In this document: positions 8,846 through 52,998 of the stretch, piece after piece
How positions within the stretch are numbered: the stretch's first letter is position 1
Layout of the letters: the number at the start of each line of letters is the position of its first letter
Source: Parietichytrium sp. I65-24A
Taxonomy: Eukaryota; Sar; Bigyra; Thraustochytrida; Thraustochytriidae
Direction: 5' to 3'
Assembly (NCBI GenBank): GCA_012862575.1
Contig: BLSF01000014.1
Coordinates: 1-64,000 of the forward strand
DNA length: 64,000 nucleotides
Program-made: the position numbers and the translations under genes
Notes under the pieces: generated by a model
What the model was told of the DNA's origin: nothing
The model's input: only the letters and a program-made list of their open reading frames with translations
Databases searched by the model: none

Positions 8846-9184
8846 TTACTCAACATCTGGACCAAGCCCCCAGCGAGCCTTGAACTTCGGAGTGAGTGCC
8901 GGCCAGACCAACCAGGATCCGCCAATGATTCCTGGAACCACGAAAGGAGCTGTGAACGGTAAGCGAGTGTGAACGCACGCAAGAATGATTATTCACAGTC
9001 AAACCATTTTCAACATTTTTTTTTCAGTTAGTGTTTGCCGAGTACAGCAAAGCATCACAACAAAGTTTGGCTTACCTCTCCTTCCAAGAATCTTTGCAGC
9101 GCGAATGAAGAATGGGCCCTTCTGCAAAGCGTTCACCTCGCCGGTGACGTAGGTGTTGTTGAGGGGGTTGCGCCAGTTCACCAT
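8846..9184 (-). CDS. 70-residue two-exon membrane protein
   Basis: I do not recognise the family. Reading the minus strand, exon 9076..9184 starts with ATG and ends at a GTAAGC donor. Exon 8846..8949 follows a 'gttcacag' acceptor and ends in TAA. The join (intron 8950-9075, 126 bases) keeps frame and gives 70 residues. The product starts 'MVNWRNPLNNTYVTGEVN', has a basic 'RAAKILGRR' segment, one hydrophobic helix ('PFVVPGIIGGSWLVWPAL') and ends 'RWGLGPDVE'. Size, single helix and basic flank resemble accessory subunits of mitochondrial respiratory complexes, which is only an inference. The ATG follows a good acceptor (tttctgcag), with a possible 5'-UTR donor GTAGGT at 9318, suggesting a leader intron at 9185-9318. 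It converges on LRRC49 and is divergent from HUWE1. Confidence 0.7.
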
Positions 9185-10293
9185 CTGCAGAAACGAAACA
9201 AATATTCGCCAACAAATCGCACACCTAGAGGTCAGCAAACAGTTTCAAAATAAAAGCCGCCACACTTGACGCGAGCCACCAGGCGGCGGCTAGCTCGTGT
9301 GTCACGCCTCCAACCTACCTTGCTTGTCTCTCAACGGATGCGTGATTGATTCTGCACTTGTTCTGTCTCTCGACCAAGGTCCTTTCCTTTTTCTTTCTTT
9401 CGCTCAGTCAGTCGAGACGGGAGAACGAGAGAGTTGTTTCACAGTCAACCACAATTCATTGCTGACACTACCGAAGGACTATGTCGCACTATACTGCACG
9501 TAGGCTTTCCTGACCTGGTGTTAGAAGCCCGTCCGCACCTCCTTGCTATGCCTAGCTATTGGGTAACGAAAAGGGGTAGCTAAGTCTAGTTTATTCTGAA
9601 GAGGCTCAAGCAGACTACCAGATCGAGGCACCGGACTAAGATAGCGGTAAGAGAAGCATGAGCCGAACTAGAACCACCGAGATACTGGGTACTCTGTCCT
9701 AGGATGGTAGAGAGCGCCGTGACTGGTGATGACCTGACAGTACTAAGGTATGTTTAATAGCTCTCTAGCTAGCTATTAATACAGTTACCACGAAATAGTA
9801 ACCCATGGGTGACAGAGACGGTTAAGAAAGGACTACTGTGACTACAGCGACCCCCTGCCCTTGCTAACCGTTTTAGCTACGCGATAGCCTGAGTCCACCG
9901 AACACGAAGAACCCAGTACGCGCATACCGTACAAGGAGTTGATCCCTGGAAGGATCTTGAGTCGAGTTCTTCGTCTTTGGCTCTTTGGCTCTTTCAGCTC
10001 TTTCACTCTTTGCCATGCCGCAAACAGATTCGGAGTGATTTTTCCAGCGAAGAGGGACTCGAACACAGGCGTCTGGAAGAGCGCAGGATTTCCGTGGCGC
10101 GCTTTGGGCGAACGATTGCCATACATTCCTAAGGGCCGGCCGAACGAACCCCCTTTCTTCCTTTTCCTTGCCACTCCCTGATTCGGACTGGGCGAGGAGG
10201 TGGCCTTCAACGGGGATTGGCACGAGAAAAAGAGAGTGAAAGTGAAAGTGCGGATAGCTCTCGAAACTCTTGCTTTGCTGCGCTCCATCGACC
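9185..10293. promoter_or_regulatory. divergent intergenic region upstream of HUWE1-like gene
   Basis: About 1.1 kb between the 70-residue gene (-) and the giant ligase (+). It includes the probable leader intron of the small gene (9185-9318). The word ttcacagtca occurs at 9438-9447. A CTAG-rich stretch lies near 9760-9780. No other gene is supported. Confidence 0.45.
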
Positions 10294-19200: not shown

Positions 19201-22200
19201 GATGGTTCAAACGTTGCCAGTGTCTCAGGTGATGCAGCTGAAGCTGGGGTTTCCGAGCCTGGGGGCAGCGCTGAAGCCTCTGCGACGGAGGCGGAGGTGG
19301 GAGACGCGGAGGCGATTGGAACTCAGCCAATGACTATATCCAACATGCCTGCTCCACCCGGCGTTGACGCTGAAGTCTGGGACAGCTTGCCCGATGAGTT
19401 CCGCCTGGATGTGCTTTCTCAGCACGGGATCTCCTTGGGTGGCTCCGGAGGGAGCATGGAGGACGAGTTTCTTGCTGCGATGCCTGAGGACATTAGAGCG
19501 GAAATCATGCGGCAGAATGGCGCAGGCGGCGTCCAGTCGAGTGTTGCAAGTGAGCCTCCCGCAGATCCGTCCAACGCTCAGGATATGGACCCGGCATCCG
19601 TCATTGCCTCTCTCGAACCTGAACTAAGACGCGAAGTTCTCTTGACTGCAGACGACTCAATATTGGCCCAGCTTCCTTCTCATTTGCGCGCAGAAGCCGA
19701 GATTCTCCGCCAGCGCCAGCTCAGTTATAATCGCAACCCTCTCTATCGCGGTGGGAGAGATCAAGCTGATGAGAGTAATACGGCCAACCAGGGGCCACCA
19801 AAACCAAAGGATGAGATCGAGCTTGACCCGGAGCTTGATGGAAAGGCACTGGTCCAAAAGCGTGATGTTCACATTGTTGCTAAGACACTCTTTCTCTTGG
19901 AGCAGCCACGCCTCTCAGTCGTCAAGGAGGTCTTAACGAATTTGTGTCTGCACGGAAAATCTCGCAGCGCGGTGCTTGAAACTTTAGTTAAATTGTTGTC
20001 CCCAAAGGTGTGGAGCGAGCACCCTTGGATACCAAAATGCATGTTTGGCAGCCCAATGGACGCCAGCTTTGCTTTGTCAGCAAGCGCCACGTGCACGGCT
20101 TTCTCTACAGACTCTAAAGGAAGGGTTGTGGCAACCATCCCTCCCCTCGTTGCCAAACGTGCGCTGGAAATTCTGAACTTTTTGGCTTCCAGAAACAATA
20201 GGGTTGTTCTTCAGTTGCTGATTTCGGGCAGCTCCTCCAAGTTGCTCTCAGCTCACGATCGCGCCAAGAGCTTTGATCAAAGTAGCTTTCCATTTTTGGA
20301 GGAGCTTTGTGGTCTTCTCGCCATGCGCGAATATAGTCTTAGCTCGGCCCATCTTACTGGTGTGATTGACTTGCTGGCCGCAGCAGTGTCTCCGCTGTCT
20401 ATGCTTGAACACGGAAGTGATTCTGCGAAAGTCGCTGAAGAATCGAAAACCTCACTTGATGCGACACCATCTGACTCAGGTGCAGGGGCCTCCGCCACAG
20501 CAGGAGACGGCGCTCCAGCCCAGTCAAGTGAGGGGAAGGCCGAATCGAACCAGAAGGACCGCGTAGTAGTGCCTCGTCGACAAGTCGATCCCGCAAGTTT
20601 GCGACAACTAGCTGACGTCCTCACGCTGGACACCTGCACGGACACAACCTTTTCGAAAGCCACGACAATCGTTCAAAACCTTGCTAAAGTAGATGCAAAC
20701 CGATCAAGACTTTTGAGCGAGCTGTGCCGCGCTGCTGAAAAGCTAGGGGCTCGCGCTGTGGAAGATCTTGTCTCTCTAAAGCGCGTCCTCGACTCTCAAA
20801 GCGATGCAACAGTCTCCTTGAGTGGTAACTCTATGGCGTTCGCTTCCAGCGCAAATGAAGTGAAACTTTTGCGAATTCTTAAAACTGTGCGCGGTCTGAA
20901 CGAATCTCCGGATGACTTGCAACGCTTGTGCGCAAGCGTAAATCTAGATGCTCTATGGGAGTCCTTATCAAATTGCTTGAAGATCTTCGCAGTGCGAAAA
21001 GAGGAAAAGAAAGACGAAGCCGAGGAGAGCACCAAAACTCCAGCGAGCTTTTACGCTTCTACCTCCTCCTCACGCCAGGAGTCTCTGGTTCCGGGATCCG
21101 CAGCAGTGGGGGAAGGTGAATCGAGAGATGCATCGGATCCGAGTACGAGTTCAGTGCTCGCATTCGGACATGCCAGATTGCCTATCATCAAAGCATTTTT
21201 CATCGTCAACGGATTCACTGACAGCGTGAAAGAAAAGGTGAAAGCTAAGGAGGAGGAGGAGAGACGAAATAAACTTTTGCTCGAAGAGCAGAGACGTCTT
21301 GAAGAAGATCAAGGTATGGCGAATTCTCAATCTCTTGAAGGCAATGCTGAGCTTCGTGACGATCCGAAGGAGTCTGCAGGAAAGGTACCGAACAAGCGTG
21401 AGGCAACTCTCGTCAGGTTTGTCCAGCAGAATGGCTGGATCTTGAATGAGCTCGTTACCCAATCCCCAAGCTTACTGGGCGGTTCATTCAACTGTTTGCT
21501 CCGCCACGGCAAGTGTCGCGGTGTAATCGATTTCGACAACAAGCGCCAGTACTTTACATCTGCAATGAAAAAACTGCGCTCGTCGACGAGGACACCACCA
21601 ATCAGGCTCCAAGTTCGCCGAACTTATGTCTTTGAGGACTCTTTCATGTTTCTACGCCCACTCGAAGCAGAGGAAATGCGAGGACGCCTGTCAATTACAT
21701 TTGAGAATGAACCTGGCATTGACGCTGGCGGAGTGACCCGCGAATGGTACGAAATCCTTGCTCGTGAGATGTTTAAGCCCGGATATGCGCTGTTTAAGCC
21801 GTCTGCCGACAGCTCGGCATTTCAACCGGACCCGCGCTCGTACATAGTAGACCAGCACTTGGACTACTTCAAATTTGTTGGTCGCATAGTCGGAAAGGCC
21901 ATCGCCGATGGGCAGCTCTTGCCCATCCACTTGGTGAGAAGTATGTACAAGACGATGTTGGGGCGACGAGTGACTCCTCAAGACATGCAAAGCATCGACC
22001 CTGAGTACTACCGGGGTCTGATGGAGCTCCTTCAGATGGATGTTGAAGAACTAGGTCTGGAGTTGACGTTTACAGCGGAGAGCGAAGAGTTTGGAGTGAG
22101 GAAAACAAGGGAACTCATTCCTGGCGGATCCAACATCCATGTCACAGAGAAAAATAAACGCGATTACATCCGCCTTGCAACACAGCACCGCATGACGACC

Positions 22201-22674
22201 GGAGTGCAAAAGCAACTTGACGCCTTCTTGAGCGGTTTTCACGAGCTTGTTCCTGACGACCTCATCGAAATTTTTGACGAAAATGAACTAGAGCTATTGA
22301 TCAGTGGAGTGCCCGAAATCGACTTGGACGACTTGAAGCAGAACACGGAGTACGTGTCGTACTCCGCGACAACTTCCCAAATAAAGTGGTTCTGGAAAGC
22401 TCTCGAGTCTCTTTCAAACGAAGACCACGCAAAGTTTGTCATGTTTGTGACTGGGACCAGCAAGGTCCCTCTTGACGGCTTCAAGTCGTTGCAGGGAATG
22501 CGAGGTCCGCAAAAATTCTCCATACACAAAGCTTACGGCGGAGACAAGACACTGCCAATGGCCCATACTTGCTTCAATCAATTGGATTTACCAGAATACA
22601 GCTCCTATGAGATCCTCCGAGAAAAGCTGATGTACGCGATCAGTGAAGGCGGCGAAGGTTTTGGATTCGGATAA
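10294..22674 (+). CDS. HUWE1: giant HECT E3 ubiquitin ligase, HUWE1/UPL1/TOM1 type
   Basis: This is a 4,126-residue uninterrupted protein that transfers ubiquitin from an E2 to substrates through a HECT cysteine. The N-terminal armadillo-like DUF908/DUF913 region includes 'AQSWGGKAQGF', matching a conserved HUWE1 word. A UBA domain lies near residues 1480-1525 ('MVQCGFVMAHVRRAM'), with UIM-like helices near 450, 1565 and 2945. A very acidic Asp/Glu tract lies near 2370-2450. DUF4414-type repeats ('LPDEFRLDVL', 'MPEDIRAEIM', 'LEPELRREVL') lie near 3015-3145. The HECT domain covers about 3750-4126, with the active-site Cys in 'PMAHTCFNQLDLP' (about residue 4093). The C terminus 'EGFGFG' is standard. 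I see no WWE domain, so the layout is closer to plant UPL1/2 or yeast TOM1. ATG 10294 is preferred over an in-frame TTG at 10270. Confidence 0.95.
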   Translation: MKIKAREIPSREGDLRLCERQAVEDALKCRAEGDSEFCSALEQTLSANECFSEQVDLADWITVINEVDDVLAGLANQMESENRMIVKVGRTKTAAADETSGEPRPNTSFSDPKGALLTCLKFTLKLLSNSRRVALYRSFDRLVPFFGLADEQIDELLLEVFVAATTPSKTYMHAADSEERKYSRLGGEDGIGNILLCFAQSWGGKAQGFDLRMCVTEPDNSPSLPSSGGDIYFDFYPKADAPVDGEDELQANRPPKSLQRLHMTITPEELGCGPEKVFRQLVDEHKIHASQQYSLLQRVRLAFSFKTMQGRRTRVRQRLLALRTLLSVSALSPVMVLYFQNEPELAQDLVGLLDKGQFLSPEEYSSGTQVPLDLCIKAIYVLDAITKATLEDAGAQASRESGVLQALGATRSDSHGILLSMLRTATTMLERHACAVQEQLASQSASAALGENEALDLSLAMSFALETSSNPGRGPTMDSAHASESDGTGGQMLNSKGKGENQAKSNLRCPVEDLEKNQFDWMEATFNLSNTIACVRQGAAALTDAGLVHSLLSAILTERNFRKQIRSDFISAELDCPRRSMITSLSMFILDNAIEAYPSAARWASEMNLVDLSIDTLEAILKRTQLISSRIRNEAGLPKLSQQVSSQTQTGQDELPVDPRLSIQDLEGVDDEEVLIAEKRDGGREEGNEAGESSSSGQSDDEASSHDHRRTTSAEATSDLPSDLVAKGCGTIAPGSLSEADQALLCSILSLLLTMQNFSGTNRAGLGGMSDRLRSPRSKLHRCLRCLFDNVNQFTGQVYTRASFLLSEVLNGDPASARPVFFSGLARSVFMVSSTGQLPIHDDAIRATPVLYLALILNHRSMQLLKNRIRPNPLDKLVQVFQNQRHVREMYVDCAGSTGRFVLRLLQDSTTLQKTTMSTCVEAFQKLLEDMRRVDAKGEELWWHRRCLQETLQFCIPLLEQVEFAKIFVEKGGLKALLNLYQETLPVSESFLLRTGKEFEDVKVSKSLTFVVYSVIGISKGGIETVHQVIELLGSMLKDVAKLRDDLRQSAVEGTLLKSVPQANVEEARAATGYSEDAGVWGDEKSADGEKDLRSAISSVSPFFQKLTAIEWLCNLLSKCLMSGMPSNHNSFRLHQNWISDFMSPERLAVLHELASLDREIRHELAVGLVERRLSGEDSKVSLREKGLAELNRFCDTFRKLLRNLSRLSFLHNSSSRLRHSDTACALARNMAKEVQKVLSEYLSSKPLEEGGAESKVQVVYNCMVFQLFNACITESKKQQILPNSVILQTLCETSSSEDSSTAVPGISDLSQDSTLGRALSTAFWSMDTASSINWAPLGTGAGETASGMSQNLNVLEPVMTFLWNLTSMPKSKTPSAQLSFAAQSSWPDFREMVLRVQIKVIRELGPRLESESWQRMPDQACLSLFPAISVLVSTALLDKDLVPGISDPGEENSQRRRETDDTSLFRGFLAGNRMAVEATSEPFAIDESVAERMVQCGFVMAHVRRAMQTLASNDPNFVMDWLLVNPATEAEMLSSESGATANTATVSEGQSAAMEAANDTNEDDELNLALRLSLGDNADEEPKSAMATDEDTKAQRELDEKVRKESLSEMSQADEESQELQKISLVVSQRKTAFLNFRRSAIKFCTNVLVTTPETDANGVRSSVVAESVTLLLSNLEKSLPMPQRLRLWTELSSDVLGGVSHSGKDTVKLNSLALQLQVLSKLVSRMIVTLSLKKKEEERSDSLSPSAIHEYLNGSQSKDLVVAVVACLEGAEEQGEWIGSFFNFLWEVLRLARLLESKDAHRKTDPKESRVDLQSRELAGPSVRACKFLLGNRASILDAPAARSLFQLLVEALDDYALVEDFIGRPVSKASVDVLLAGLPNTCRFPGYVTLASLAISKVVEHPDSLRISMASLLTSAFKVVQDKTKSVARGEGENLRSRKIHLQELLDLVEPIRRRDPEVFIQAAKAVLAFQRTKSGEILAELKSGDAQSLRQLKSDEKDNGAYSGKVRDTVVLRSLELLFSSLSTWFQSGSKKEVTQSDQSGFLDAANLLVILKDLVEFQPWIAHQLLGAEVPEDIVQLMEDIWSKRLDLKRPPCNTFVGVLLHLVLACEGEVPDAVVPKLTKGAFELLNVLANHSIGEAKRQVVSVLSKCFETLASLSEPSSAHGLRVLVLQNWTTLGRILLDSNSFKEEHKSESRKTQVSWEIARAMHGKSFVKLLLRSLGSLDLDHPLASPVVGNVLVFVAFLSRRGVTQHVRVSSNTKQKSSPSRARSSSSSSSASSGSADNHPASTARGTETHDEDVDMMLSALAEREHSRSRSAAESRFPGGELEHGSSLESLGSGAEGYGTIGLVASQDALDRDEEIDEAEADGLLNEEDDEGNLEEMDVEELDEEDMENGEEDDDGEAVDEDEDDDDDEEDDDDDGDEDDDDDDEDDDGDEDDDDGDDDAGLNINVIDDLMEQDFIRRLHSGAHRTLEINDDGDFNDAIEDDEDDEEFDTEAMRVFRALDGAQDSDVFQVFSGRGAMNINHLNAERLLPDLFGDQNINGIGGNRVADWLSSREPVLDLLRNIQPSQSGAQMHSFALSDFGRGGVRGAPATRIGRNGGMVRVYMSSTRDRPRRAGVGGFQWSVQGEGRASNTGHEQSLPPSEINSLSIPGVRDSSSGLYSSFLGRVGRRAEAQDQTALSHGRQFRIASPATSAVEVDTAAEVPIPELFAESPSVPNGDWQPRSSSSFLNPSAVRMQMVRQRGAPQRNQMYNHLPVGSQDQLTRWANGVTTSDSSAVSDLVSLFSQFAVDEEQASVQSQQAPAVQPAQDALNEEDTREATREVADLESSAQVPAQDEGGIRSGSSQEAFVEQASSAASRGDVGDLPGVHTTNGTPMSVDESGAVPLADASETPPQPPASAGVGSVMHVGGEESNIPADVQENSTETGVSAEDADQDDELEAAIRFSMQALTTQDEATAPVDGSNVASVSGDAAEAGVSEPGGSAEASATEAEVGDAEAIGTQPMTISNMPAPPGVDAEVWDSLPDEFRLDVLSQHGISLGGSGGSMEDEFLAAMPEDIRAEIMRQNGAGGVQSSVASEPPADPSNAQDMDPASVIASLEPELRREVLLTADDSILAQLPSHLRAEAEILRQRQLSYNRNPLYRGGRDQADESNTANQGPPKPKDEIELDPELDGKALVQKRDVHIVAKTLFLLEQPRLSVVKEVLTNLCLHGKSRSAVLETLVKLLSPKVWSEHPWIPKCMFGSPMDASFALSASATCTAFSTDSKGRVVATIPPLVAKRALEILNFLASRNNRVVLQLLISGSSSKLLSAHDRAKSFDQSSFPFLEELCGLLAMREYSLSSAHLTGVIDLLAAAVSPLSMLEHGSDSAKVAEESKTSLDATPSDSGAGASATAGDGAPAQSSEGKAESNQKDRVVVPRRQVDPASLRQLADVLTLDTCTDTTFSKATTIVQNLAKVDANRSRLLSELCRAAEKLGARAVEDLVSLKRVLDSQSDATVSLSGNSMAFASSANEVKLLRILKTVRGLNESPDDLQRLCASVNLDALWESLSNCLKIFAVRKEEKKDEAEESTKTPASFYASTSSSRQESLVPGSAAVGEGESRDASDPSTSSVLAFGHARLPIIKAFFIVNGFTDSVKEKVKAKEEEERRNKLLLEEQRRLEEDQGMANSQSLEGNAELRDDPKESAGKVPNKREATLVRFVQQNGWILNELVTQSPSLLGGSFNCLLRHGKCRGVIDFDNKRQYFTSAMKKLRSSTRTPPIRLQVRRTYVFEDSFMFLRPLEAEEMRGRLSITFENEPGIDAGGVTREWYEILAREMFKPGYALFKPSADSSAFQPDPRSYIVDQHLDYFKFVGRIVGKAIADGQLLPIHLVRSMYKTMLGRRVTPQDMQSIDPEYYRGLMELLQMDVEELGLELTFTAESEEFGVRKTRELIPGGSNIHVTEKNKRDYIRLATQHRMTTGVQKQLDAFLSGFHELVPDDLIEIFDENELELLISGVPEIDLDDLKQNTEYVSYSATTSQIKWFWKALESLSNEDHAKFVMFVTGTSKVPLDGFKSLQGMRGPQKFSIHKAYGGDKTLPMAHTCFNQLDLPEYSSYEILREKLMYAISEGGEGFGFG

Positions 22675-39752: not shown

Positions 39753-42303
39753 CCCCACTAAGCAGGGGTTCCGCTGCGGAAGAACCCGGTAGTGAGCAGC
39801 TTTAACCCCTGCCATAGCTCTAGCTAGGCGTTATTTTGACTCCTTGAGTGCCGGCGTTGCGGTTCGGTTCAACACATATCGCGAAACGGAGTCTTGTGCC
39901 AAGGTGTGGTGGGGTTAGTATCTCCGTGTTATTTGAGCACACTTCTCACCGCGGTGGCGTGCAGGAAGCGAAACTGACCGGACAAGATTCTGTTGAGTGG
40001 CGCCGATGTTCGGCAGAGATGCTGGGTTCTGTGCAGGGAGGTTCTCGCATAGTAACCGAGTCGAGCAAACTCGTGAACAGCAGAGCCCTTGACCTTGTCG
40101 CAACCGAACTGAGCAAACTCGCGAACATGACTTTCTCGCGGATAAACAAAGTGGGAGAACTGTGATCAGCGTTGGAGATATTGTTCGTGAAAAAATATAC
40201 TGCAGACCCAATTTCCGACGATAGTCTTCAGTGGCTGCTGAGCCTCAGTCGCGGTGTTTGCATCGTCCTCTCAGACAGCGAAAGTTGGCCGGTTTCTCAC
40301 GAGCCAGCACGCACTTATGATCTGAAAGTCCGTCTGCTGCAAAACCTTCTTTGAAGTGTGCAACAGAGGTTTCTAGGCTGGGCCGAGGTAACAGCGATTA
40401 AAGTGAAAAGTGTGTTTTGAGCAGAACGAGATTCTTAAAATGCGGGGGACTCGTCAAGGAACGCCCTTTGGATCCATTAGTCCTGCCTCTGGAAGGCTCA
40501 ACAAAAGAATTCCACAAAAGCCAAATTCGGGAAATAATCTATACGCGCTTGACACTACCCCTCCATCAGCAAGAATGTATTTTTCATGGAAACCGAAAAA
40601 AAAACGCCACGGTTACATTGCATAACACCGCCTCAATCTCTGTCCAACAGCCACGAGGAAATTCAGTTTCCAGCTTTTTAATAAAAGTTCAAAAGTTATT
40701 TCTAAATCCAACGGAAAATTGGAAGGCCATCTTACGAGTAAAAGTTGCGACAGCCTGAATTCATTTTGTTTCTTCTTGCGTTGAAGGGGGTGCCTTTTCT
40801 TCTCTTTTGCTTCGTACCTTCCGGGCGATCCAACAATTCATGTCTTCAGATCGACGGCTCGTGGATGGCCCAACAAAGGAGCACCGCATTTTGACGGCAA
40901 ACGAATGATATTTGTGGTAAATGTATCCGTTGACAGGTTTTGGCTCCGAGTCAGAGGCTCACTTTCGAGAGTTCTCACTTCGGACTGAGACAATGTTAAG
41001 ACCCATTCAACCTTGCAACAGTGGTCAGAGTGGTTTTGTCCGACTCCATGTGAGCGCGCTTGTCTGTGAAACTGGAGTTGGAGAGTGTTGCCGGTAATGT
41101 TCTGCACGCGGCGGCTGTACGAGTGTACTGAACTGACTCACTGAGTGCGAGGTGGTGAGTGTACACAATTATCATTGACTCAGGCTGCGTGAACAAGTAC
41201 CTGTCATGAAATTGAGTGACAGTGGAATCCAGCCGAATCGAATGATAGCGGTTGACATCTTCCTTAGCCTAGGCTGAGCGGGGAAGGGGGGCATGAAAAT
41301 GGAAGACTGCGAAGTTGCAGTAAGAAGAAAAAGCTGACTTAGTCTAAAGTTAATCTGTCGTCACCGTCGTCACGAGTCGATTGGCCCTCTACTTTTTCTA
41401 CTTGCTCCTTCTTCTATGATCAACTTTAGAACCGCCACATCGATTTTCGCTCTTCGATGTACATGCTGAGGAACACTACCGAGCTATTTGTCACTACATG
41501 GAGTCGACCGGAGACGGACCATATAATCCAATTCGGCCACCCAGTGCCGACACGCTACTGTTTTCATCACTAAATTAATTAGCTGATGGGCTGGCCATGG
41601 CTAGGGGGGCCAAAAGAGTCATGCACTGTCTACGTAGTAACCCTATGACACGGGACAGAGTCCTCTAGCCTACTGGCTATTCATAGCATTAATGGCTAAA
41701 AGGGCTCCACATTCGAAATAGATGCAAAGTGTTTGGAAGCTGAACAGCCTTGAGTGATCGTTGGCTAGCTCTTTTGCTCCTTTGCTATGGAACGCATGTG
41801 TAGCATATCCATGCGAGGTATGTGGCACGAGGGCAAGTCTCACCGATCACTTAGCTCGTACCTCAAGTTCACTCTCACCTAGGCGAACAGTGTTAACACA
41901 GACGAAAATCTCAGGCCCCTTACTCCTGTTTAAAGTTGCACCATTCGGAGGTATTCTACAGGCACCCCGTTTTCAAGCACTTGAGCTGACCAGGCGAAGC
42001 GAGTGATGTCTGACACCATACGAAAGAGTATTAGTATTCACATGGAGCCGGGAACTAGCTAGTGCGACTCTTTGTTGCTTCAAAGTCCAAAGAGTCCAAA
42101 GCATTGAAAGAGGAGTGTTACTTGAAACTATAGAGTGGTTTCATTGTGAGCACCCACCCACCCACCTGCTTCCATGTCACAGTGGTTTCTCGTGGTTTCA
42201 TGACCACGATAGGTGGCACTCCGCCGGAGCAAGACAGTCATAGAACGTGCGCTGCACTGAAAACCGTCAGAAGCGTTCAGCCGCGGATACGGCGTCAAAC
42301 CTG

Positions 42304-44415
42304 ATGCGTTCTTTCGCCTTTGTGCTCGTGTTGGGGGCCTTGGTGGGGGCCTCCAGCGGCCGTGCTCCGAAAAATATTATTCTCAGTGTTGCTGACGACC
42401 TCGGTTGGTTTGACGTCGGTTTTGTGAATCCGTATGTGCACTCCCCAACACTGGACGCGATGGCGACGCAGGGGGTGAAGCTAGATCGCCACTATATGTA
42501 TAGGTTTTGCTCACCATCCCGCACGATGCTTTTGACAGGTCTTTATCCGCACCGGCTGGGGCAACAAACAGACATGAACCTGAACCCCATCTCCACGCTT
42601 CAATGTGCTGTGCAAGAGCAGCTCACCTTTCTGCCAGAAATTCTAAAAGAGAACGGCTACGCAACGCACATGCTGGGCAAGTGGCACCTTGGCCACCACC
42701 AGGCCAAGTTTACGCCAACGAGCCGCGGGTTCGACACGTTTTTAGGATTTTACGCAGGAGATACTGGCCACATGGATCGCAACACGAAACTGCTCAAGAC
42801 CTCCATGTTCTCTTCGGAAAAATGTTCATGCTCCACCAAAAACTCGTTTTTGGACGACCAAAAGTCCTGCTCGAAAAAAACTCTTTGCTCCTCTGTTCTT
42901 CAGCTGGTGAACAACTCTGGACAAGAGTTTCAACAAGTTTCTGCTGATCAACTTGGTGAGTTTGAGTACGCAGATGAGCTTCTTGGCACTGAGGCAGCGC
43001 GCATCATTCGGAGTCACGACCCGTCGCAAAATCTGTTCATGTACCTTGCCTGGGCCACTCCGCATTCGCCCACTGAAGCGCCCGATAGCTACGTTTCTCA
43101 GAACGTCAAGCTTGCCGCCGCACTTCAGTCGAGCAACTGCTACCACAAATACCGTCTGGAATACGCAGGGATGATCAGCGCTCTAGATGCTCAACATGCT
43201 AAGATTTCGGACGCTCTGGAGGAAACTGGGATGTGGAACGACACTGTTTTGATTTTTGTCTCTGACAATGGCGGACACGACGAGGGAACGACTGCTCGAA
43301 ATGGAATGACGTGCACGAAGAGTGGTACCAAATTAGTAAAAAGCGGAAGAAACTACCCGCTGCGCGGAGGCAAATTCACTTTCTGGGAGGGCGGAATTCG
43401 GTCTGTCGGTTTCATCTACTCTCCAAACGCCGACATTCTTCCACTCGACCGGCGCGGTACTTCTTATCAGGGTCTGTTCTACGGAAGCGACTGGGGCGCA
43501 ACCATACTCGAAGCAGTAAACATCTCCAAGCCCGATGACTTTGGAGCAGATAGTGTGTCCCACTGGAACTCCATTGTCAAGAATGGCGTGGCACAGTCTG
43601 ACACGGCAAGGAATCTCATTCCCGTCCAGATCTACGGCGACTACGAGCGGTACGTGCTGCTTTACGAGAAGGATGGGACAATATACAAATATCTCAAGGG
43701 ATACCCTGGCTACATCCGTGGCTATGGTTGGGGGCGTGCAAATAAGAAAATCACCAAAAACGATTCGGGAGGCTTCATCACGATACCAGAGGAGATGACC
43801 AAAAGTCATCCTTCGTACGACCCAAAGGTGATTGCAGGCGCAAAGACCAGTTTTCAATGTATCGATGAGCCTTGCTTGTTTGACGTCAGTTCCGATCCAA
43901 GCGAGCTTGAGAATTTATACGGCGACGCCTCGTATGATAACCTGGTAGAGGAGTTGGAGGCTGCACTTCAAACGGAGAAATTGAAAGAACAGTCTTTCGT
44001 TGGCTCCGATCTCTGCTACCCGGGGGATCGCACAGCGCAGCTCCGTATGAAAGGGAAGGAATATCATGACCCCCATGCTTTGGCCCTTGCAAATTTTTGC
44101 GGGACGTTTGTTCCTTGGATGACTGATGAAGGCGTCAAATTGCCCCTCATTTATAGTTCTTGCCCGGACGTTGTTGGCTCCGAAACTCGAGCTTTGCCAA
44201 GTCCTGGCATCTGTGATGCCCAAAAGAAGAGCCCTTGTGGGCAACTCGCCTCAACGCACGCCTGCGCATGGCTGGGTAGTACCTGCGTTGAGACAACTGA
44301 CTGCAGCAAATACAACAGAATACGGTCGACCAAGTCACGCAAGGCAGGTTGTCTAAAAAGAGCAGACATTTGTGAGTACAGCTCTTCCGCACGAAAATGC
44401 GTTACGGCCCTTTAG
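42304..44415 (+). CDS. secreted arylsulfatase, ARSB-like
   Basis: This is a formylglycine-dependent sulfatase that hydrolyses sulfate esters, probably on polysaccharides. It has 703 residues. A clear signal peptide ('MRSFAFVLVLGALVGASSG') directs it to the secretory path, so it is lysosomal or extracellular. The metal-binding 'VADDLGWFDVGF' (Asp31-Asp32) and the activation motif 'CSPSRTMLLTG' are intact; Cys69 would be converted to formylglycine. 'MLGKWHLGHH', 'TRGFD'-like 'TSRGFDTFLGF' and 'SDNGGH' follow in family order. The sequence is closest in feel to arylsulfatase B/I/J. After the catalytic domain a tail of about 70 residues has eight cysteines (from 'GICDAQKK' to 'KCVTAL'), which may be a small disulfide-bonded module. 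I chose ATG 42304 because it opens the signal peptide; the upstream frame begins with GTG. It converges on NPHP4. Confidence 0.93.
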   Translation: MRSFAFVLVLGALVGASSGRAPKNIILSVADDLGWFDVGFVNPYVHSPTLDAMATQGVKLDRHYMYRFCSPSRTMLLTGLYPHRLGQQTDMNLNPISTLQCAVQEQLTFLPEILKENGYATHMLGKWHLGHHQAKFTPTSRGFDTFLGFYAGDTGHMDRNTKLLKTSMFSSEKCSCSTKNSFLDDQKSCSKKTLCSSVLQLVNNSGQEFQQVSADQLGEFEYADELLGTEAARIIRSHDPSQNLFMYLAWATPHSPTEAPDSYVSQNVKLAAALQSSNCYHKYRLEYAGMISALDAQHAKISDALEETGMWNDTVLIFVSDNGGHDEGTTARNGMTCTKSGTKLVKSGRNYPLRGGKFTFWEGGIRSVGFIYSPNADILPLDRRGTSYQGLFYGSDWGATILEAVNISKPDDFGADSVSHWNSIVKNGVAQSDTARNLIPVQIYGDYERYVLLYEKDGTIYKYLKGYPGYIRGYGWGRANKKITKNDSGGFITIPEEMTKSHPSYDPKVIAGAKTSFQCIDEPCLFDVSSDPSELENLYGDASYDNLVEELEAALQTEKLKEQSFVGSDLCYPGDRTAQLRMKGKEYHDPHALALANFCGTFVPWMTDEGVKLPLIYSSCPDVVGSETRALPSPGICDAQKKSPCGQLASTHACAWLGSTCVETTDCSKYNRIRSTKSRKAGCLKRADICEYSSSARKCVTAL

Positions 44416-44766: not shown

Positions 44767-47700
44767 TTACTTGACAGAAGACGTAAATTTGATTCGAATC
44801 AACAGGCACTCTTCATTCTGGTCCTCCTCGTTGTTTACGAAAACCAGAACTTCCCGAACAACTGGTTTGTGCACCGCTGCGATCCAGAGCCGAATATAAG
44901 ACTTGGATTTCGGCGAAACCTCAAGCCTGGGCTGCTTTGACTTTACCAGATTGGGGTCACTTGTGCGCAGAAGAAACGCGCGAGGCTCGTTCCACGGGTT
45001 CACATAGGCAATCTTTTTGTGTGATGCTTGGTGGAGAGGCAGCTCCAGCTGAAATGTTTTCGTGACGTCTGGAATAGCAGCAGTTGCTTTCACTAGCCAC
45101 GAGCTAACAAGCTCGTGAGTGTCAACGTCGACCATGTGGATCTTAATCTTTCGCGTCGTTCCAGGCGGTGTTTGTTCCAGCGGGCGGTAATCCACCTGAA
45201 CCTTGTTGAATGCTCCTGCCACGAGCTGAAATGGGTCACGCGGGAAAAGCTCGATTTCGCCTGGCCACGAAGTAAAGCATTGAACCCGCCGAGAGAATCT
45301 GTCCCCTTTCACTATAAGTTCACTGGTTGAAGCTTGACCTAGAACCCCATGAAAGTCAACCCTATGCATTGGTTGCACACATACATGCCAAATACCGAAT
45401 GGGAGTGCGTGATATTGGTCTCGATAGAGAAGGACGTAAAACTCACCAGATGTGTCGGAAGCGTTTCGATATTTCATCGCCACTTGCCCCTCCCGCCATT
45501 GTACGTGAACGCCTGGATCTACGGAGTGCACGAAGATTTCCGAGTTTGGCTGTAAGTCTTTTATTTGAACACTAGCCTTCAAATACTCATTGTTCAAGCC
45601 ACAAAAGTGCAAAACCCTGTCGACAGAAAATTGCTTTGGCTCCACCTTCACATCCACCATGAGAACTGTATGCCCCTGACTTGCCACCATGCGAACAGGG
45701 ATGGATCTCTCGCGCACGGCTGCTCGCCCGCCCGCTCGAAACGCCGTCTTAGCGTCACTGGTTTTCGAAGCGCACAATCCACTAGCAAAGCTAATGAACA
45801 CAAATGGAATGCTCACCGTCTCACCACCATCAAGCGTCAGCTCGAGAGTATCCGGAGTAATCATTTCGTGCTCCACTGGGAACAGAGACACGTCAACGCC
45901 GCTCTGCTGCCAAGCGCACTTGACATGATCTCTGTAAAAGCGCCACTCCTCCCCGTTGGTGAGGCATCTCAGCTCTTGGTCCGAAAAGGTAATCTGAAAG
46001 CGCTCCTCATGCTGGTAAGGGTTGGTCAACTGGACCTCGAAGTAGCTTGGTGACCCAAAGCAAGGAAAGATCTCCACCTTTCGCGTTACCGACGAGCGTA
46101 ACAGACTACCTATCAGATCGCGCTTCTGCCCTTCACGAAACCGACGAACAATATTCAGCTGTGCGTCTTGGTTTGTAAACTCAGGGTTTGATGAATTGTC
46201 AATTGCGATGAGGTCGTCATAGACGCCTTGTTTGTCTGAACGAATCACCCGGGAACGGCGGAGCTGATTAACCTTTGCGAGTTGTCTGGATGTCCGATCC
46301 ATATCCTCTTGGGACCCAAGATACGTTGGTTTCGTCTCCTCCAATACTGAAAACCCCAGTTCTGCAATGAACTTGTGGAGACTTGAAACGGTGATTTTTC
46401 CGAGCTTGTCTTTATCCTTTGAGAGTAACATGTCTTTGACTGGGATTCCCTTACTCAGCGCGCGGTCTATTGCTTTGCAAATTTTTTCCCTGATTGAATC
46501 CGTGCCCAGTTTGCCATAGTCGATGCGGCCAGGATTTTCGTCTAGTTGAAAGTGCTCCAGCTCAGACTCGGACACTCCGGCTTCATACCCCATGTCTTCG
46601 ATAATTTTTATTAGCCGCGAAACGGACACGGACCCATCGTCATCTTTATCATATTTTTTGCACCGACGCTTGATCTTTTCGGCGTTGGTCCTCAGAAAGT
46701 CAAATAAAGTCCCGGACTCGGAATTGTCTTCCCCCAACGTGGCACGAAGAAAGGCTACGAACTCGACTTGGTCTACGCTTCCATCGCCATCGGTGTCAAA
46801 CACTGTTACAAAATCTGCAATCTCATCGGAGCTCTCGAAATTGAAACCAACTGTCTTCAAGACACTCTCCAGATCTTTAAAGGTCGTTTGTTTGGAGACT
46901 GAGTTATTCAGAACCAAGAATGCCTCCTCAACGTTGATGCCTTTCCTCTGGGCGTGGCGCAGAGATCGCTGCAACCTTGCAAGGGAGGAGGGGTAAGATG
47001 TCGCTGAGCCCTTACCAATCTCTCGAGCAGAAAGCTCATCCACGGTCTTTATCTTTGGCGAGTCCAGAGGAGCTCTCATGGGTCTTTTCCTAGCGTTGGG
47101 AGCATTGGACCTACCAGAGGATGACGGCGACGCCACCGCAAAGAGGAGAAACTCCTCATATGTGATCAGCCCATCCTTATTCGTATCGAACTTTTCTATC
47201 AGCGGCTGAAAGTCCTCATCAGAAGCTTCAAAGCCGAGCTTGCGCAAAGCCTGGCGGAATGATGGCACAGGTACTCTCCCGCTGCCATCTTCATCAAAAT
47301 GGCGAAAGCTAGCTTTCAGATCGACATTTTCTTCTTTCGCTCGAGCAAGTATTTTGCGCAGTCTCTCCTCCCATTTATCCATCTTTGCTCCGCCTCCGAA
47401 AGTATCGACTTGCAAGGTCGACTGTGGCGCCTCCATAACGAATGCAACAAATTCGACCCAATTCACCTTTCCATCCTTGTCCAGATCCATATCTCTAAAG
47501 AGTTCGTCTGCTTCCCGGGAGCTCAGCCGCACCCCGACCTCCTTTAGACCAGCAAGGCACTCTTCCTTCGTCACGATGCTGTCTCCATCACGATCAAGAT
47601 GCTCAAAGCTCTCTTTCAAGTCGACGCCTTTTTTTGATGCGGACAAAACGATACGTCGCACCTTGTCTGAAACACTTAACGGCTCCCCAGCGGTGATGAA

Positions 47701-50700
47701 TGCTAAAAACTCTTCAATATGCACCACACCATCGCCGTCTAGGTCAAGTTGTTTGAACAAAGCCGACATCGTGTCATCATTGACTTCAACTCCAATCTCT
47801 TCGAGACCAGTTCGGCACTCTTGAGCTGTCAAGTGCCCGTCACCATTTTTATCAAAGTGGTTGAATGTGTCGCGCAATCCCACGCCGCCCTTTTCCTTCG
47901 CTTTGAGTACAATTTTTCGCAATCTCTCATCCAGCCCAGTCTTCTGTCCCAGTGACACGCTTGACGAACCGTTCTGCCAGCGAGAGCTTCCTTGCATACC
48001 TGGGTCGTCGTCCTTCTCGGCGATTGCGCAAAAGTCTACAAAGTTGAGTACCTTTCCGTCCCCATAGCGTTTGAGCAAAATATTGATTTGGGCGGTGGAA
48101 GGCTTGAAGCCCAAACCAGCGAGTCCAGTTGCGAGCTCCTCTCTCTCCACCATACCATCGCTGTTAACATCAAAGTGGTCTCGAAACGCGTCTTTCAGGG
48201 TGACGCCACTCTTATTCCACGCACGGCGCAGAACTCTTCGCAATTTGGACTCCAAGTCGGCGGCTTCGTCAGCGAGAACCTTTGCCAAAAATTTTTCGTA
48301 TAAAACTCCACGAGACCTCGCGTCTTTGAAAGAGTCAACCAACTGCCCAACATCCCGGGCAGAGGGTTTCGGCATTTCAGTATCTTCGAAACATTTGGTG
48401 AGCACCCGTTTAAAGTCTGTAGAGGGTACTATGCCCAAATTTTCCACGTCCAAGTCGTTAAAGACGCGATAGAGGCCGACGTTGATTCCGCTGCAGGATT
48501 TCATCTTCTCCCAGAGTTTGGAAATATCATTGTTGAGCAAGGTCTCAAGATTAAGGTAATTTGTCAGCGCAGCAATTTGAATTTGGCCTCTGTTCTCCCG
48601 GTCGAGGACACGATCGAGCCGCGAGAGCTCGCCAGCAGTGATCACCATTTCTGTCGCGATGGATGGCATCGGCGATGAGCCAGGGCCTTCCTCGCGCTGC
48701 CTTTCCCTCCTTGAGGGATGCAAAATTCGCCTGGAAGTTGATCCTGCAACTTTGATTAGATCGTCCAGCTGCGGGTTTACGTGCGCAAGAGGGCGAGCCA
48801 TCACCCTTCGGCTGGGACCGCTCCCGCCTGGATTGACGGACAGGTTCTCTTCGTTCTCCGCAGCCGTGCGGATGTTGCTGAAATGATGCCCATTGGAGAG
48901 ACCTGGGTCGGCGCTTGCCATACCCTTGTCCTTAAGGCGCTTCGGTCCGTCACCTTTCAACCCATAATTTGTTAGAATTACCTGGACTTTGCCAGTTACC
49001 TCGCCTCGGCCCGGAGTAGACGAATACAGTTCGATTGCCTCAACACCATTCGAGCTGACGCTGTCGGCTGGAACAATAACGTCAAATTCTTTTGCGACTT
49101 TCACGACCTTTTCGCCCTGTCTCATCAAGTCTCGAAGTGGAATCGCGATGACCCCGATATTTAGCAAGGAATCCCCGTCCCAGACTTGAACAAACAAGGT
49201 CTTTTCCAAAAGGTACTTTGCAAACTGCTCAGGCTCTTGTTCGTCCCCAGCGGTGGTATCAATAACGTACTTCATTGCAAGGCTTGGAGAATGCCGGAAT
49301 TTTGGATCGTCGGCACGGGTGAGAACGAAAGGTTTCGATAGACCGGCAGAAGATGGCGGAGCCCTTTTGGTCTCTTCAACTGCTCGAAGATTCATCCGCT
49401 CTGTCCTGGTTGGCAAGCAATTGTAGAATTGAAAAGTGAAGAAGATTGAGTCCGGACGTCTAGAGTGATGAACGCTCTCCATGGCATGCCTGAAAGCCGC
49501 GAATTGGAGGGTGATCTCATTCGCTTTAAGCCTGTCCCGTAATTCTATCTCCACATCCTGTGGAGACATGTCCAAAGCAGTACTGGCATTCTTAACCGAC
49601 CTCTCCAGCGGGTTCTTTGCATCTGTTACATAGCCGTGCTGATTCAGAAGTGTGCGGGACGCGCGAGTGAGCTCGGAACTAAGCACGTCCTTGTTTCCTG
49701 ATGTTCCCCTGCGACTTGACGGAACGCTGCTTACAGAATTTGCGGGATCATAGCTCAGACTTGTGAAAGCGCGATCAGAAATTTCAGCTTTGGACTCTTC
49801 TCCCGTCACTGCATGCATCCGGAGATTCAGAGTCTGCGCAAGAAGAGAGCCTGGTATATCTGCAGACTGAAGTGCGGGACGCGGAGGTTGGATATTTCTC
49901 TTGTTCCGCAATGTCTGCCGAACTGATCTCGCTCTGCTCTTTGAGAGTTTTCCGCTGGATGCCCAAGCAAAGTCATTCTCCGGATGAAATTCATTCATTC
50001 CGTCACTCGATGCATCGCTCTCGCTGAGATGTTTTGATCTCGTTCGTAGTCGCGCCGCTCGCTTCTTCGTTTTAGGCCCAGACCCATCGCTTAACCACGA
50101 ATGTTCCGAGGAGCTTTTGTCTTCATCTGATTGACCATCGCCGCCGTTGAAGGAGGACGACGAGGACTTCGACGAACCGGTAGAAAGCGATCTGGAGCGG
50201 GAAGAATCCGAGTCTGATTGGCGTGAAGTCGTACGCCTATTCTTGCTTCGCTTTCGATTTCTTTCTGTGTCTCCTGAAGCCCTCCGATGGCTTGAACTTA
50301 TCTTTTCAGGTTTCAGGCCCAGATGAAGTCCTAAGATCGGATTTTTGGACACAACGGACTTATCCAGGGGCAAGGTATTCCCCGGTTCGGCAAACGGGGT
50401 CTGCATGTCATATTGAATTTCAATCTCTAACGGGCTTCTCGTTGCCGACGCATTCCGATGAGCGTTGGCAAGTACGATCTTTTTACTCCGTTGTTCTCGA
50501 TTCACCACGAAAGGAAGCCATAGTCCGCAACCTAAAACGAATGACAAAGACTTGCCATTTTCCAAGATCCTGTAGTCGCACTGAAATGCCAGTGCAATGC
50601 CAGGATCTCGGGGGACGTCTTTTACTCGGAGCGGATTAAATGCACGCAAAATCCTGTCGTAGCCAGGATGACCGCCGAAATCGCTCTCTTGCAGCTCTAG

Positions 50701-51717
50701 CTCAGCCCAGCCCGACTTTGCAACACACTTTCGTTCATTGTGAGGGGCCACTTTGAAAACAAATTGTGTATTCGCAGCAGCATGCATCTTAATTCCTTTC
50801 GCCTGGTACAAATATTCTTGAACGGCTTCTTCCCAGCTCTCCGGAAGCAGAATTGAGATTCCGTTCACGAAAACATCAATTGTTGGTGCGAGTCTAAGTT
50901 TCTGGCGAGGCTTTGCAGGGAAAGAGGCGATACCATCCTGGGGTTTCAAACCGTGAACCACTTGCTTTGGCCCGATGAGTTCGTTCTCGCGGACCAGATG
51001 TGCGATCCTCAAAATATCTTCGTCGTATGAACATGAGTACGTGAGCTGAAATCCCTCTAGGGGCTGCAGCTTCGATGTATCGAGCTTTGTTGGATCCTCC
51101 TCGCTCACGAAGAGCAACGCACGTGGGCTTCCGGAGTACATTTGAGCTGTTTGCTTCACAGCTTTGGTGGAGCTGGCCCCAGCAGCAAACTCACTCGAGA
51201 GCGCAAAGATTGGAAGGTACGTCCAACCGCAGCCGTATTGGCCCAAAATTTGAGAACCGCCTGGGTCTTTTTCAACGATAACCAATTCGAGCACTGCCAA
51301 GCAGGTGGGGTCAATAACCTTGGTGTAGAATACCACGAAAGAATGCATCAGCTCAAGCTTTGAATTCTTCTTTCCAAAGAGAGTGGAGCTCGGGAGTACT
51401 GGGTCGCTGACCCATGTATTGCCAAAGAAGCTTTGCGAGGCTGTGTGAAAAAGAGATATGTGTACGCAATACTCCAGCTTATTTTTGATTGCTGCTTTGT
51501 CCTTTGCGAATGCACCGGGAAGACGAAACCCTTTCATCTTGTCAAATTGCACTCGCACACCACACTTCTTCCCGCGTCGCACTCTCTCCTGCACCAGCGG
51601 CACAACAAGCTGGTGGTTTCGGGACTTTAGCCATCGCTCCGATGATCGCTTCCAATCGTTTTCCAGCCGGCGATCTGGTACATCCGAGCCGGTGTGAGAG
51701 GACTCGCTGTCACTCAT
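44767..51717 (-). CDS. NPHP4: nephrocystin-4 with internal EF-hand array
   Basis: NPHP4 is a structural protein of the ciliary transition zone that links nephrocystin complexes and gates entry to the cilium. Here it is one 2,316-residue frame, far longer than the human protein (about 1,430). The N-terminal half shows NPHP4 words such as 'YSGSPRALLFVSEEDP', a C2-like region with 'YFTFQFYNCLP'-type sequence (here 'FFTFQFYNCLPTRTERMNL') and 'LFVQVWDGDSLLNIGVIAIPL'. The C-terminal Ig-like repeats are clear: 'FEVQLTNPYQHEERFQITF', 'VDVDTHELVSSWLV', 'KKIAYVNPWNEPRAFLL' and 'VLVFVNNEEDQNEECLL'. Between them, about residues 1020-1810, lie roughly ten EF-hand units, several with canonical loops (for example DKNGDGHLTAQE, DLDGDGVVHIEE, DTDGDGSVDQVE). 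A Ser/Arg-rich linker occurs near 500-580. ATG 51717 is the first ATG of the frame. Confidence 0.92.
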   Translation of the reverse strand: MSDSESSHTGSDVPDRRLENDWKRSSERWLKSRNHQLVVPLVQERVRRGKKCGVRVQFDKMKGFRLPGAFAKDKAAIKNKLEYCVHISLFHTASQSFFGNTWVSDPVLPSSTLFGKKNSKLELMHSFVVFYTKVIDPTCLAVLELVIVEKDPGGSQILGQYGCGWTYLPIFALSSEFAAGASSTKAVKQTAQMYSGSPRALLFVSEEDPTKLDTSKLQPLEGFQLTYSCSYDEDILRIAHLVRENELIGPKQVVHGLKPQDGIASFPAKPRQKLRLAPTIDVFVNGISILLPESWEEAVQEYLYQAKGIKMHAAANTQFVFKVAPHNERKCVAKSGWAELELQESDFGGHPGYDRILRAFNPLRVKDVPRDPGIALAFQCDYRILENGKSLSFVLGCGLWLPFVVNREQRSKKIVLANAHRNASATRSPLEIEIQYDMQTPFAEPGNTLPLDKSVVSKNPILGLHLGLKPEKISSSHRRASGDTERNRKRSKNRRTTSRQSDSDSSRSRSLSTGSSKSSSSSFNGGDGQSDEDKSSSEHSWLSDGSGPKTKKRAARLRTRSKHLSESDASSDGMNEFHPENDFAWASSGKLSKSRARSVRQTLRNKRNIQPPRPALQSADIPGSLLAQTLNLRMHAVTGEESKAEISDRAFTSLSYDPANSVSSVPSSRRGTSGNKDVLSSELTRASRTLLNQHGYVTDAKNPLERSVKNASTALDMSPQDVEIELRDRLKANEITLQFAAFRHAMESVHHSRRPDSIFFTFQFYNCLPTRTERMNLRAVEETKRAPPSSAGLSKPFVLTRADDPKFRHSPSLAMKYVIDTTAGDEQEPEQFAKYLLEKTLFVQVWDGDSLLNIGVIAIPLRDLMRQGEKVVKVAKEFDVIVPADSVSSNGVEAIELYSSTPGRGEVTGKVQVILTNYGLKGDGPKRLKDKGMASADPGLSNGHHFSNIRTAAENEENLSVNPGGSGPSRRVMARPLAHVNPQLDDLIKVAGSTSRRILHPSRRERQREEGPGSSPMPSIATEMVITAGELSRLDRVLDRENRGQIQIAALTNYLNLETLLNNDISKLWEKMKSCSGINVGLYRVFNDLDVENLGIVPSTDFKRVLTKCFEDTEMPKPSARDVGQLVDSFKDARSRGVLYEKFLAKVLADEAADLESKLRRVLRRAWNKSGVTLKDAFRDHFDVNSDGMVEREELATGLAGLGFKPSTAQINILLKRYGDGKVLNFVDFCAIAEKDDDPGMQGSSRWQNGSSSVSLGQKTGLDERLRKIVLKAKEKGGVGLRDTFNHFDKNGDGHLTAQECRTGLEEIGVEVNDDTMSALFKQLDLDGDGVVHIEEFLAFITAGEPLSVSDKVRRIVLSASKKGVDLKESFEHLDRDGDSIVTKEECLAGLKEVGVRLSSREADELFRDMDLDKDGKVNWVEFVAFVMEAPQSTLQVDTFGGGAKMDKWEERLRKILARAKEENVDLKASFRHFDEDGSGRVPVPSFRQALRKLGFEASDEDFQPLIEKFDTNKDGLITYEEFLLFAVASPSSSGRSNAPNARKRPMRAPLDSPKIKTVDELSAREIGKGSATSYPSSLARLQRSLRHAQRKGINVEEAFLVLNNSVSKQTTFKDLESVLKTVGFNFESSDEIADFVTVFDTDGDGSVDQVEFVAFLRATLGEDNSESGTLFDFLRTNAEKIKRRCKKYDKDDDGSVSVSRLIKIIEDMGYEAGVSESELEHFQLDENPGRIDYGKLGTDSIREKICKAIDRALSKGIPVKDMLLSKDKDKLGKITVSSLHKFIAELGFSVLEETKPTYLGSQEDMDRTSRQLAKVNQLRRSRVIRSDKQGVYDDLIAIDNSSNPEFTNQDAQLNIVRRFREGQKRDLIGSLLRSSVTRKVEIFPCFGSPSYFEVQLTNPYQHEERFQITFSDQELRCLTNGEEWRFYRDHVKCAWQQSGVDVSLFPVEHEMITPDTLELTLDGGETVSIPFVFISFASGLCASKTSDAKTAFRAGGRAAVRERSIPVRMVASQGHTVLMVDVKVEPKQFSVDRVLHFCGLNNEYLKASVQIKDLQPNSEIFVHSVDPGVHVQWREGQVAMKYRNASDTSGEFYVLLYRDQYHALPFGIWHVCVQPMHRVDFHGVLGQASTSELIVKGDRFSRRVQCFTSWPGEIELFPRDPFQLVAGAFNKVQVDYRPLEQTPPGTTRKIKIHMVDVDTHELVSSWLVKATAAIPDVTKTFQLELPLHQASHKKIAYVNPWNEPRAFLLRTSDPNLVKSKQPRLEVSPKSKSYIRLWIAAVHKPVVREVLVFVNNEEDQNEECLLIRIKFTSSVK
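46290..48650 (-). other. EF-hand array inside NPHP4
   Basis: This stretch encodes about residues 1020-1810. Reading the protein order, recognisable loops start DVNSDG, DKNGDG, DLDGDG, DRDGDS, DLDKDG, DEDGSG, DTNKDG, DTDGDG and DKDDDG, with a degenerate unit ('DVENLG') before the first. About six keep every usual Ca2+ ligand; DRDGDS, DEDGSG and DKDDDG deviate at position 6 or 12. The units come in alternating pairs separated by basic helices ('KVRRIVLSASKKGVDL', 'RLRKILARAKEENVDL'), which looks like repeated duplication of a two-EF-hand module. Confidence 0.85.
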
Positions 51718-52998
51718 CGCAGGCAATTGCAATCGGCCACTCCCTCTTCGGCGCCGAGACCGACAACTTGAAAGCCTAAACCCTGCCAATAAGGAAGGCG
51801 CACTCTGCTCTTCACCGTGGTCTTACTTCCCCTCGCGGAATCTGCCGATTTTTTCCTTTCCAAGCGTCGGGCTCTCTTGCGGCAAGAAAGCTCTTTCCAA
51901 GGTTTCACTCGCGGCCACGGGTGCTTAACTCGGCGAATTCTGCGCGTTCAAGTCTTCAGCCCCTCCTCCCGAGTCCCCAACCCTGGGACTTGCGCCCTCA
52001 AACTTTCGTCCTCGGTGCCTACTCAGCCGAGCCAGTTTGACAGTCAGTTCGCTTTGGCAATGGCAGTGTCAGTGTCAGTGTCAGTGTCAGTGGCAGTGGC
52101 AGTGGCAGTGGCAGTGGCAGTGAGAAAGAGAATGACCGTGATCGTGACAGTGACCGCCGTGGTCGTGCCCGTGAACTTCGGTCTAAGCCGTGGGCGCCGG
52201 CCCGGCCCAGTGGTGAGCGAACGGTCTTTATTTGCAGTACTGGCATTCAGTAGCGCTATTTACCAGGCTGCGACCTTTTACCAGGTACTAATGAGTAGGA
52301 CCCCTACAATACGTTAGGTAAGGAAAGGGTCACGGTTATGGACTTACATGTTAGTTCAGGCCCGATTGAAACAGAAACTGAACAGTGTGCACAAGTGTGA
52401 AAAGCGATTCGTGAATCAGTCAATGCTTACTCTCTGGTGAATTGCGCGCTGCATTCAGCCCCAGTGACACAAAATAATTACAGTTAGGATATCCTAGTTT
52501 TGATTTTGTAAACTTCATTGAATGAACAAAACTTAAAACAAATTGACAGTGAATAGAACGGCGTGCGAAAAATCCGTTCCGAACGTTACTCTGCTCGACG
52601 ATGCATGATCTGCGATGCGGGAGGGATCCTCTTTCTGACTATGAATTCTGGTTCTCAGCTACATCTGCTAAGCTTTCTTGTAAGTGACTGGCACCCAACT
52701 TAGAAGCTACTAATAGAAACTAAGTAATGATTGTAGAAGTCCAGGCTTCAGTCCTTAGCAGAAATGATAGTTTTTGTGCTCGAGTATGATGTTGTACGAC
52801 TCGAGTATCCTTGGAAGACTTGCCAGCGGAGGCGAACAGGCCAACAGGCGAACGATAGCGAGCAGCTGAAGCCCCTGGCATAGTGGGGTGAAGACTTGCG
52901 GACTCGTATCCTCCAAGCCTGACTCACAGTTGCAAGCTTGCGACGTCAGATCCAAGTGTTCTGACCTCGCTCTTTTGCGGGTTCCCGCGAACACGGCG
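51718..52998. promoter_or_regulatory. divergent intergenic region, NPHP4/MICU
   Basis: This gap of 1.28 kb must hold both promoters. It contains the hexanucleotide repeat at 52061-52122. No further gene is supported. Confidence 0.45.
52061..52122. repeat. hexanucleotide microsatellite
   Basis: The tract runs tggcag, then tgtcag four times, then tggcag five times. It lies about 345 bases upstream of the NPHP4 start and 880 upstream of the MICU start. Such repeats are prone to length change. Confidence 0.9.

Follow-up and report, generated by a model that had tools for sequence, protein, structure and literature searches.

The window, which is the whole 64,000-nucleotide stretch of DNA analysed here, carries on its minus strand a predicted homologue of nephrocystin-4 (NPHP4/POC10), encoded at 44767..51717 by a single open frame of 2316 codons plus stop, with an array of EF-hand pairs lying in frame between its N-terminal and C-terminal parts. 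The open frame itself spans 44767-51789, position 51717 being its first in-frame ATG. A preliminary description of this DNA had reported neither intron nor frame change at the two junctions of the array, and this is borne out by the absence of any stop in the 2316 codons (the other two minus-strand frames contain 97 and 116) and by a similar GC3 across the three parts of the gene (N-terminal 0.52, EF-hand 0.55, C-terminal 0.55). The same description had named an assembly error as what might overturn the feature; the window contains no ambiguous bases (N), and the 401 bases across the junction between the EF-hand and C-terminal parts are present once in the genome, according to a DNA search with this downstream junction.

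The NPHP4 parts flanking the array were found at no other place in the 42.5-Mb genome: the N-terminal 1001 aa gave one match, the C-terminal 507 aa gave one 100% match and one at chance level (E 0.67, 12.8 bits), and searches with both parts found no second, array-free NPHP4. Misassembly, or the mistaken joining of two genes into one, was rejected on the stop-free frame, the absence of N, the similar GC3 and the single-copy parts and downstream junction; we consider it highly improbable, as a separate upstream gene would require a stop or a splice that is absent from the frame. The combination of NPHP4 and an in-frame EF-hand array is a confirmed feature of the locus, and the array almost certainly belongs to the NPHP4 protein.

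The gene lies tail to tail with a plus-strand sulfatase gene at 42247-44415 (PF00884, E 8.9e-42), and upstream of the NPHP4 start, 52040-52100 is occupied by a short stretch of simple repeat that resembles CTGACA when read on the minus strand. Elsewhere in the window, a plus-strand frame of 4134 codons runs without interruption from 10270 to 22674.

Identity of the flanking regions

The reference was a human NPHP4 sequence that does not come from a database record, used because no NPHP4 profile was available for comparison, and the E-values against it assume a database of 1e8 letters. Three collinear matches to this sequence were obtained (60.5, 108 and 184 bits, the best of 50 shuffled controls reaching 26.9). 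The N-terminal region (aa 77-262; 50932..51489, minus strand) aligned to the NPHP4 N-terminus with 28% identity (E 8e-9). The second match (aa 725-1011; 30% identity, E 6e-23) includes a central C2-like region with the motifs FTFQFY and VWDGDSLL (aa 725-913; 48979..49545, minus strand), whose C2 label we transfer from human NPHP4; a two-row alignment of the central region gave 35% identity. The C-terminal region (aa 1854-2311; 44785..46158, minus strand), Ig-like and labelled ASH/MSP after the literature, matched with 27% identity (E 4e-47). In the literature, a figure legend gives human NPHP4 a central C2 domain (PMC5290278), and NPHP4 is labelled with ASH/MSP domains (PMC8041816). The earlier assignment of both ends of the protein to NPHP4 is upheld by these matches, which follow the expected order.

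Of the profile searches proposed in the preliminary description, that for EF-hands gave a match, EF-hand_7 being found with E 6.2e-49 on the whole protein; the Pfam scans, which returned EF-hand families and a few weak matches below cut-off, gave no NPHP4 family. Against PDB sequences, the C-terminal part had zero matches and the N-terminal part nothing credible (six matches, all with E 0.35 or worse), while AlphaFold models of two NPHP4 pieces, computed without relatives, were too poor for use (mean pLDDT 34.5 and 35.1). With NPHP4 backed by neither a Pfam profile nor a PDB sequence match, the flanks might be taken for some other C2/Ig-like scaffold, but the three collinear matches to the reference human sequence (E 8e-9 to 4e-47) and the presence of the partner RPGRIP1L in the same genome speak against it, and we give this alternative next to no weight. 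Judged from its sequence, the 2316-aa protein is very probably NPHP4. Its N-terminal, central C2-like and C-terminal regions follow one another as in the reference human protein, with 27-35% identity. The difference lies in the linker between the conserved ends, which has about 940 aa in this protein as against about 120 aa in the reference human sequence, and which here consists mostly of the EF-hand-pair array.

The EF-hand array and its relatives

The array (aa 1067-1811; 46285..48519, minus strand) consists of eight units, each an EF-hand pair of about 80 aa, and was recognised by Pfam EF-hand_7 (E 1e-53 on the centre of the protein), by a unit HMM and by a match to EFCAB6. The unit HMM represents an EF-hand pair of about 80 residues and was applied to six proteins, four of which are parts of longer frames, with 64 units found in total. 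Its scores, which favour NPHP4 and RPGRIP1L because it was seeded on their units, divided the NPHP4 array into five strong units (E 4e-26 or better) and three weak ones (E 0.0003-0.02), two of the latter matching just part of the unit.

The preliminary description had counted about ten EF-hands, of which about six kept all the usual ligands. The array and the complete loops are there as described, but both numbers are higher: the eight pair units offer up to 16 EF-hand positions, and seven loops retain all four side-chain ligand positions together with a hydrophobic position 8. These loops, all on the minus strand, lie at aa 1183-1194 (48136..48171), aa 1289-1300 (47818..47853), aa 1325-1336 (47710..47745, with His at position 9), aa 1375-1386 (47560..47595, with Ser instead of Gly at position 6), aa 1411-1422 (47452..47487), aa 1511-1522 (47152..47187) and aa 1641-1652 (46762..46797). 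Complete ligands are missing from over half of the candidate loops; in 2000 shuffles of the NPHP4 stretch, ligand-complete loops averaged 0.21 and never exceeded 3. Some of the NPHP4 loops are quite likely to bind Ca2+.

The linker had also been described as replaced by EF-hand units. The array is indeed in frame within it, but some of the linker sequence that precedes the array still aligns to the reference human NPHP4, so that the linker is more aptly said to have received the array as an insertion than to have been replaced by it.

When the array alone was compared with solved structures, EFCAB6 came first (E 3.3e-25), followed by calmodulins (from 3.6e-17) and, level with them, CFAP115 (1.7e-16), all among the best 60 of 175 matches; when the entire protein was searched instead, the top places went to calmodulin constructs (1.1e-22), with EFCAB6 behind (1e-18). 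EFCAB6, which is closest to the array among solved sequences, and CFAP115 are both axonemal doublet proteins, and to our knowledge neither contains NPHP4 parts. EFCAB6 belongs to the microtubule inner proteins of doublets, and FAP115 is counted among the doublet proteins with putative Ca2+-binding domains, a similar role being suggested for EFCAB6 (PMC8595878). The array might accordingly be a static spacer or rod that binds microtubules or partners, its ligands serving folding or being remnants, without any Ca2+ regulation. The leading position of EFCAB6 with the array-alone query and its place inside doublet microtubules favour such a rod, as does the proportion of ligand-complete loops, which is seven of up to 16 in NPHP4 and nine of up to 36 in RPGRIP1L. 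The number of complete loops in NPHP4, far above chance, tells against it, as do the higher rank of calmodulin constructs with the whole-protein query and the putative Ca2+ binding of FAP115.

EF-hands are common in this genome, with at least 149 EF-hand_7 matches (among the best 150 of 461 candidates scored); of the matches listed, five fall within the frame of RPGRIP1L and three within that of NPHP4. The NPHP4 array itself has at least 61 other matches in the genome, with identities of 23-41% (from 56 scored candidates out of 142), and similar arrays or pairs are present in many other large open frames. This frequency would suit a neutral, lineage-specific insertion, by which a common EF-hand-pair array entered a tolerant linker and gained no role, and so would the linker of human NPHP4, which is short and is not known to contain a Pfam domain. 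The insertion is, however, probably old, because identity to the other matches is so low, and seven loops are still intact nonetheless; the partner RPGRIP1L, moreover, has the same arrangement. We therefore hold a neutral insertion to be distinctly unlikely.

The best listed match of the array in the genome (designated G000) was a contig 5 protein, with 98.8 bits against 77.8 bits for RPGRIP1L, which speaks against a particular link between the arrays of NPHP4 and RPGRIP1L. This contig 5 protein is encoded by a large frame in locus L009 (contig 5:352001-361000) with many VGDRVEARYKGG...YDDGD repeats, presumably Agenet/Tudor-like, followed by EF-hand pairs. No relatives were found in the viral, bacterial and archaeal contig collections scanned, a result that has little bearing on protists. 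The PUFA synthase model TIGR02813 reached 143.8 bits in the genome, under its cut-off of 1010.1, and a frame of 5583 codons on contig 66 (8562-22499) showed repeated partial PUFA-synthase model matches far below cut-off; it is perhaps a modular polyketide synthase.

The RPGRIP1L homologue and other transition-zone genes

The homologue of RPGRIP1L (2865 aa) is encoded by a single frame on the minus strand of contig 11 (417565-426162; positions 565-9162 of locus L008). The C2-C2_1 domain of RPGRIP1/RPGRIP1L has one match in the genome, on this contig (E 3.4e-32), located at residues 590-726 of the protein (126.4 bits, cut-off 29.2). Pfam further assigned C2 at 768-879, EF-hand_7 (E 1.7e-100) and, at 2730-2863, RPGR1_C, the cut-off of which (22.9) is barely exceeded by the whole protein (23.6 bits) and exceeded further by the isolated piece (28.4 bits); an IQ motif match remained just below cut-off (19.7 bits, cut-off 20.3). 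The array sits between the central C2 domains and RPGR1_C, where the unit HMM placed 18 units (residues 900 to 2683), including one at E 0.6, and its nine ligand-complete loops compare with a mean of 0.35 and a maximum of 5 after shuffling. NPHP4 and RPGRIP1L hold the same kind of module, an array of 80-aa EF-hand pairs, in corresponding linkers after the C2 domains, that of RPGRIP1L being longer and followed by RPGR1_C.

NPHP4 unit 1452 found its best match in RPGRIP1L unit 960, at 44% identity. A unit tree was built from 48 of the 64 units, 16 being dropped for an E-value not below 1e-6 or a length below 57 aa, and retained five of the eight NPHP4 units and 14 of the 18 RPGRIP1L units. Two of its 45 inner branches are well supported, and NPHP4 units 1265 and 1352 pair with good support. 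The NPHP4 units required four changes on the tree, against a mean of 4.8 after shuffling, with 72 of 500 shuffles as low. No tie between the two arrays that would mark the NPHP4 array as a copy from RPGRIP1L appeared among the 48 units, and a tree so little resolved neither shows nor excludes such an origin.

Published work attributes to mammalian RPGRIP1, RPGRIP1L and NPHP4 C2-type domains that are important for their mutual interaction (PMC5290278), and describes NPHP4 as the most prevalent protein of the NPHP complex, RPGRIP1L being as a rule accompanied by one or more NPHP components, in most cases NPHP4 (PMC4092220). Among other transition-zone genes, the genome encodes meckelin and CC2D2A and has B9 domains at five loci, with six matches above cut-off; two adjoining pieces on contig 3 were counted as one locus, and one match below cut-off was left out. 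A by-eye comparison found no EF-hand at these seven loci (five B9, meckelin, CC2D2A) among the matches listed, and the CEP290 model had no match in the genome.

Possible roles of the arrays at the transition zone

In the accessible parts of the published literature, we found no report of EF-hands in NPHP4 and none of EF-hand arrays in both NPHP4 and RPGRIP1L; an earlier mention may exist in the 2012 work of Zhang and Aravind, which would be a natural place for a survey of NPHP4 domains. EF-hands on a transition-zone scaffold are nevertheless already known, because Paramecium RPGRIP1L carries them at its C-terminus (PMC7093003). The preliminary description had known of no account of a directly Ca2+-responsive transition-zone scaffold; EF-hands are unreported for NPHP4 as far as was found, but not for the sister scaffold. 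This precedent lowers the surprise of the present finding, and the parallel array in the partner gene raises it. Like the NPHP4 homologue described here, Paramecium RPGRIP1L is a transition-zone scaffold with extra EF-hands that are missing from the vertebrate protein; it is, however, another protein, and its EF-hands are C-terminal and were tested and found dispensable for deciliation, which was still rescued by RPGRIP1L without them (PMC7093003). In the same study, depletion of NPHP4, RPGRIP1L or CEP290 blocks deciliation by Ca2+/EtOH, an effect that its authors read as a defect of Ca2+ influx and not of Ca2+ sensing, given that permeabilised depleted cells still shed (PMC7093003). The dispensability of the Paramecium EF-hands calls for caution in assuming function from ligand residues alone. 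This result, together with the fact that the array finds its closest solved relative in a doublet-microtubule protein, makes a static rod almost as probable as a Ca2+-sensitive spacer.

Our preferred explanation, to which we would assign a probability of roughly 40%, is that the sole NPHP4 found in this genome has received an EFCAB6-like array by insertion, and that the arrays of both partners are Ca2+-sensitive spacers. It draws support from the seven intact NPHP4 loops, against 0.21 expected by shuffling, and further from the collinear NPHP4 matches on either side of the array, the single open frame, the array of RPGRIP1L, the interaction of the two proteins in mammals, the Paramecium depletion phenotype and the other transition-zone genes of this genome. 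Counting against it are the ligand-incomplete loops, the dispensable EF-hands and the Ca2+-influx reading in Paramecium, the absence of NPHP4 matches in Pfam and PDB sequences, the unit tree, the better match of the array on contig 5 and the lack of a CEP290 model match. If, as we infer, the two proteins localise to the transition zone and bind each other there, Ca2+ would bind at the intact loops of their arrays, and the Ca2+-bound arrays would change in stiffness, length or contacts. The portion of the transition zone formed by NPHP4 and RPGRIP1L would respond, altering the gate or helping to release the flagellum when Ca2+ surges, as in a swimming cell that is shedding or withdrawing its flagella. 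Flagella are shed near the transition zone.

The arrays suggest that Ca2+ may act directly on the ciliary gate, and a transition-zone scaffold that is directly responsive to Ca2+ is plausible; that Ca2+ binding regulates the transition zone is a tentative proposal, to which we give somewhat less than even odds. A bolder version, in which the NPHP4-RPGRIP1L pair would form a built-in Ca2+ sensor of the gate, with both arrays stiffening or shortening together as Ca2+ rises, seems to us unlikely; in it, the signal for opening the gate or detaching the flagellum would be read by the transition zone itself, with no added calmodulin or centrin as reader. Redundancy between the two arrays would, as a speculation, reconcile a regulatory role with the negative result in Paramecium, and it becomes a concrete question because that organism shows the array to be dispensable in one protein.

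What is new here is that the RPGRIP1L homologue of the same genome also has a long EF-hand array, so that two ciliopathy-gene scaffolds in one protist would carry large modules of axonemal type. Such arrays, if present in two scaffolds that interact, would offer a direct, testable route for Ca2+ at the transition zone.
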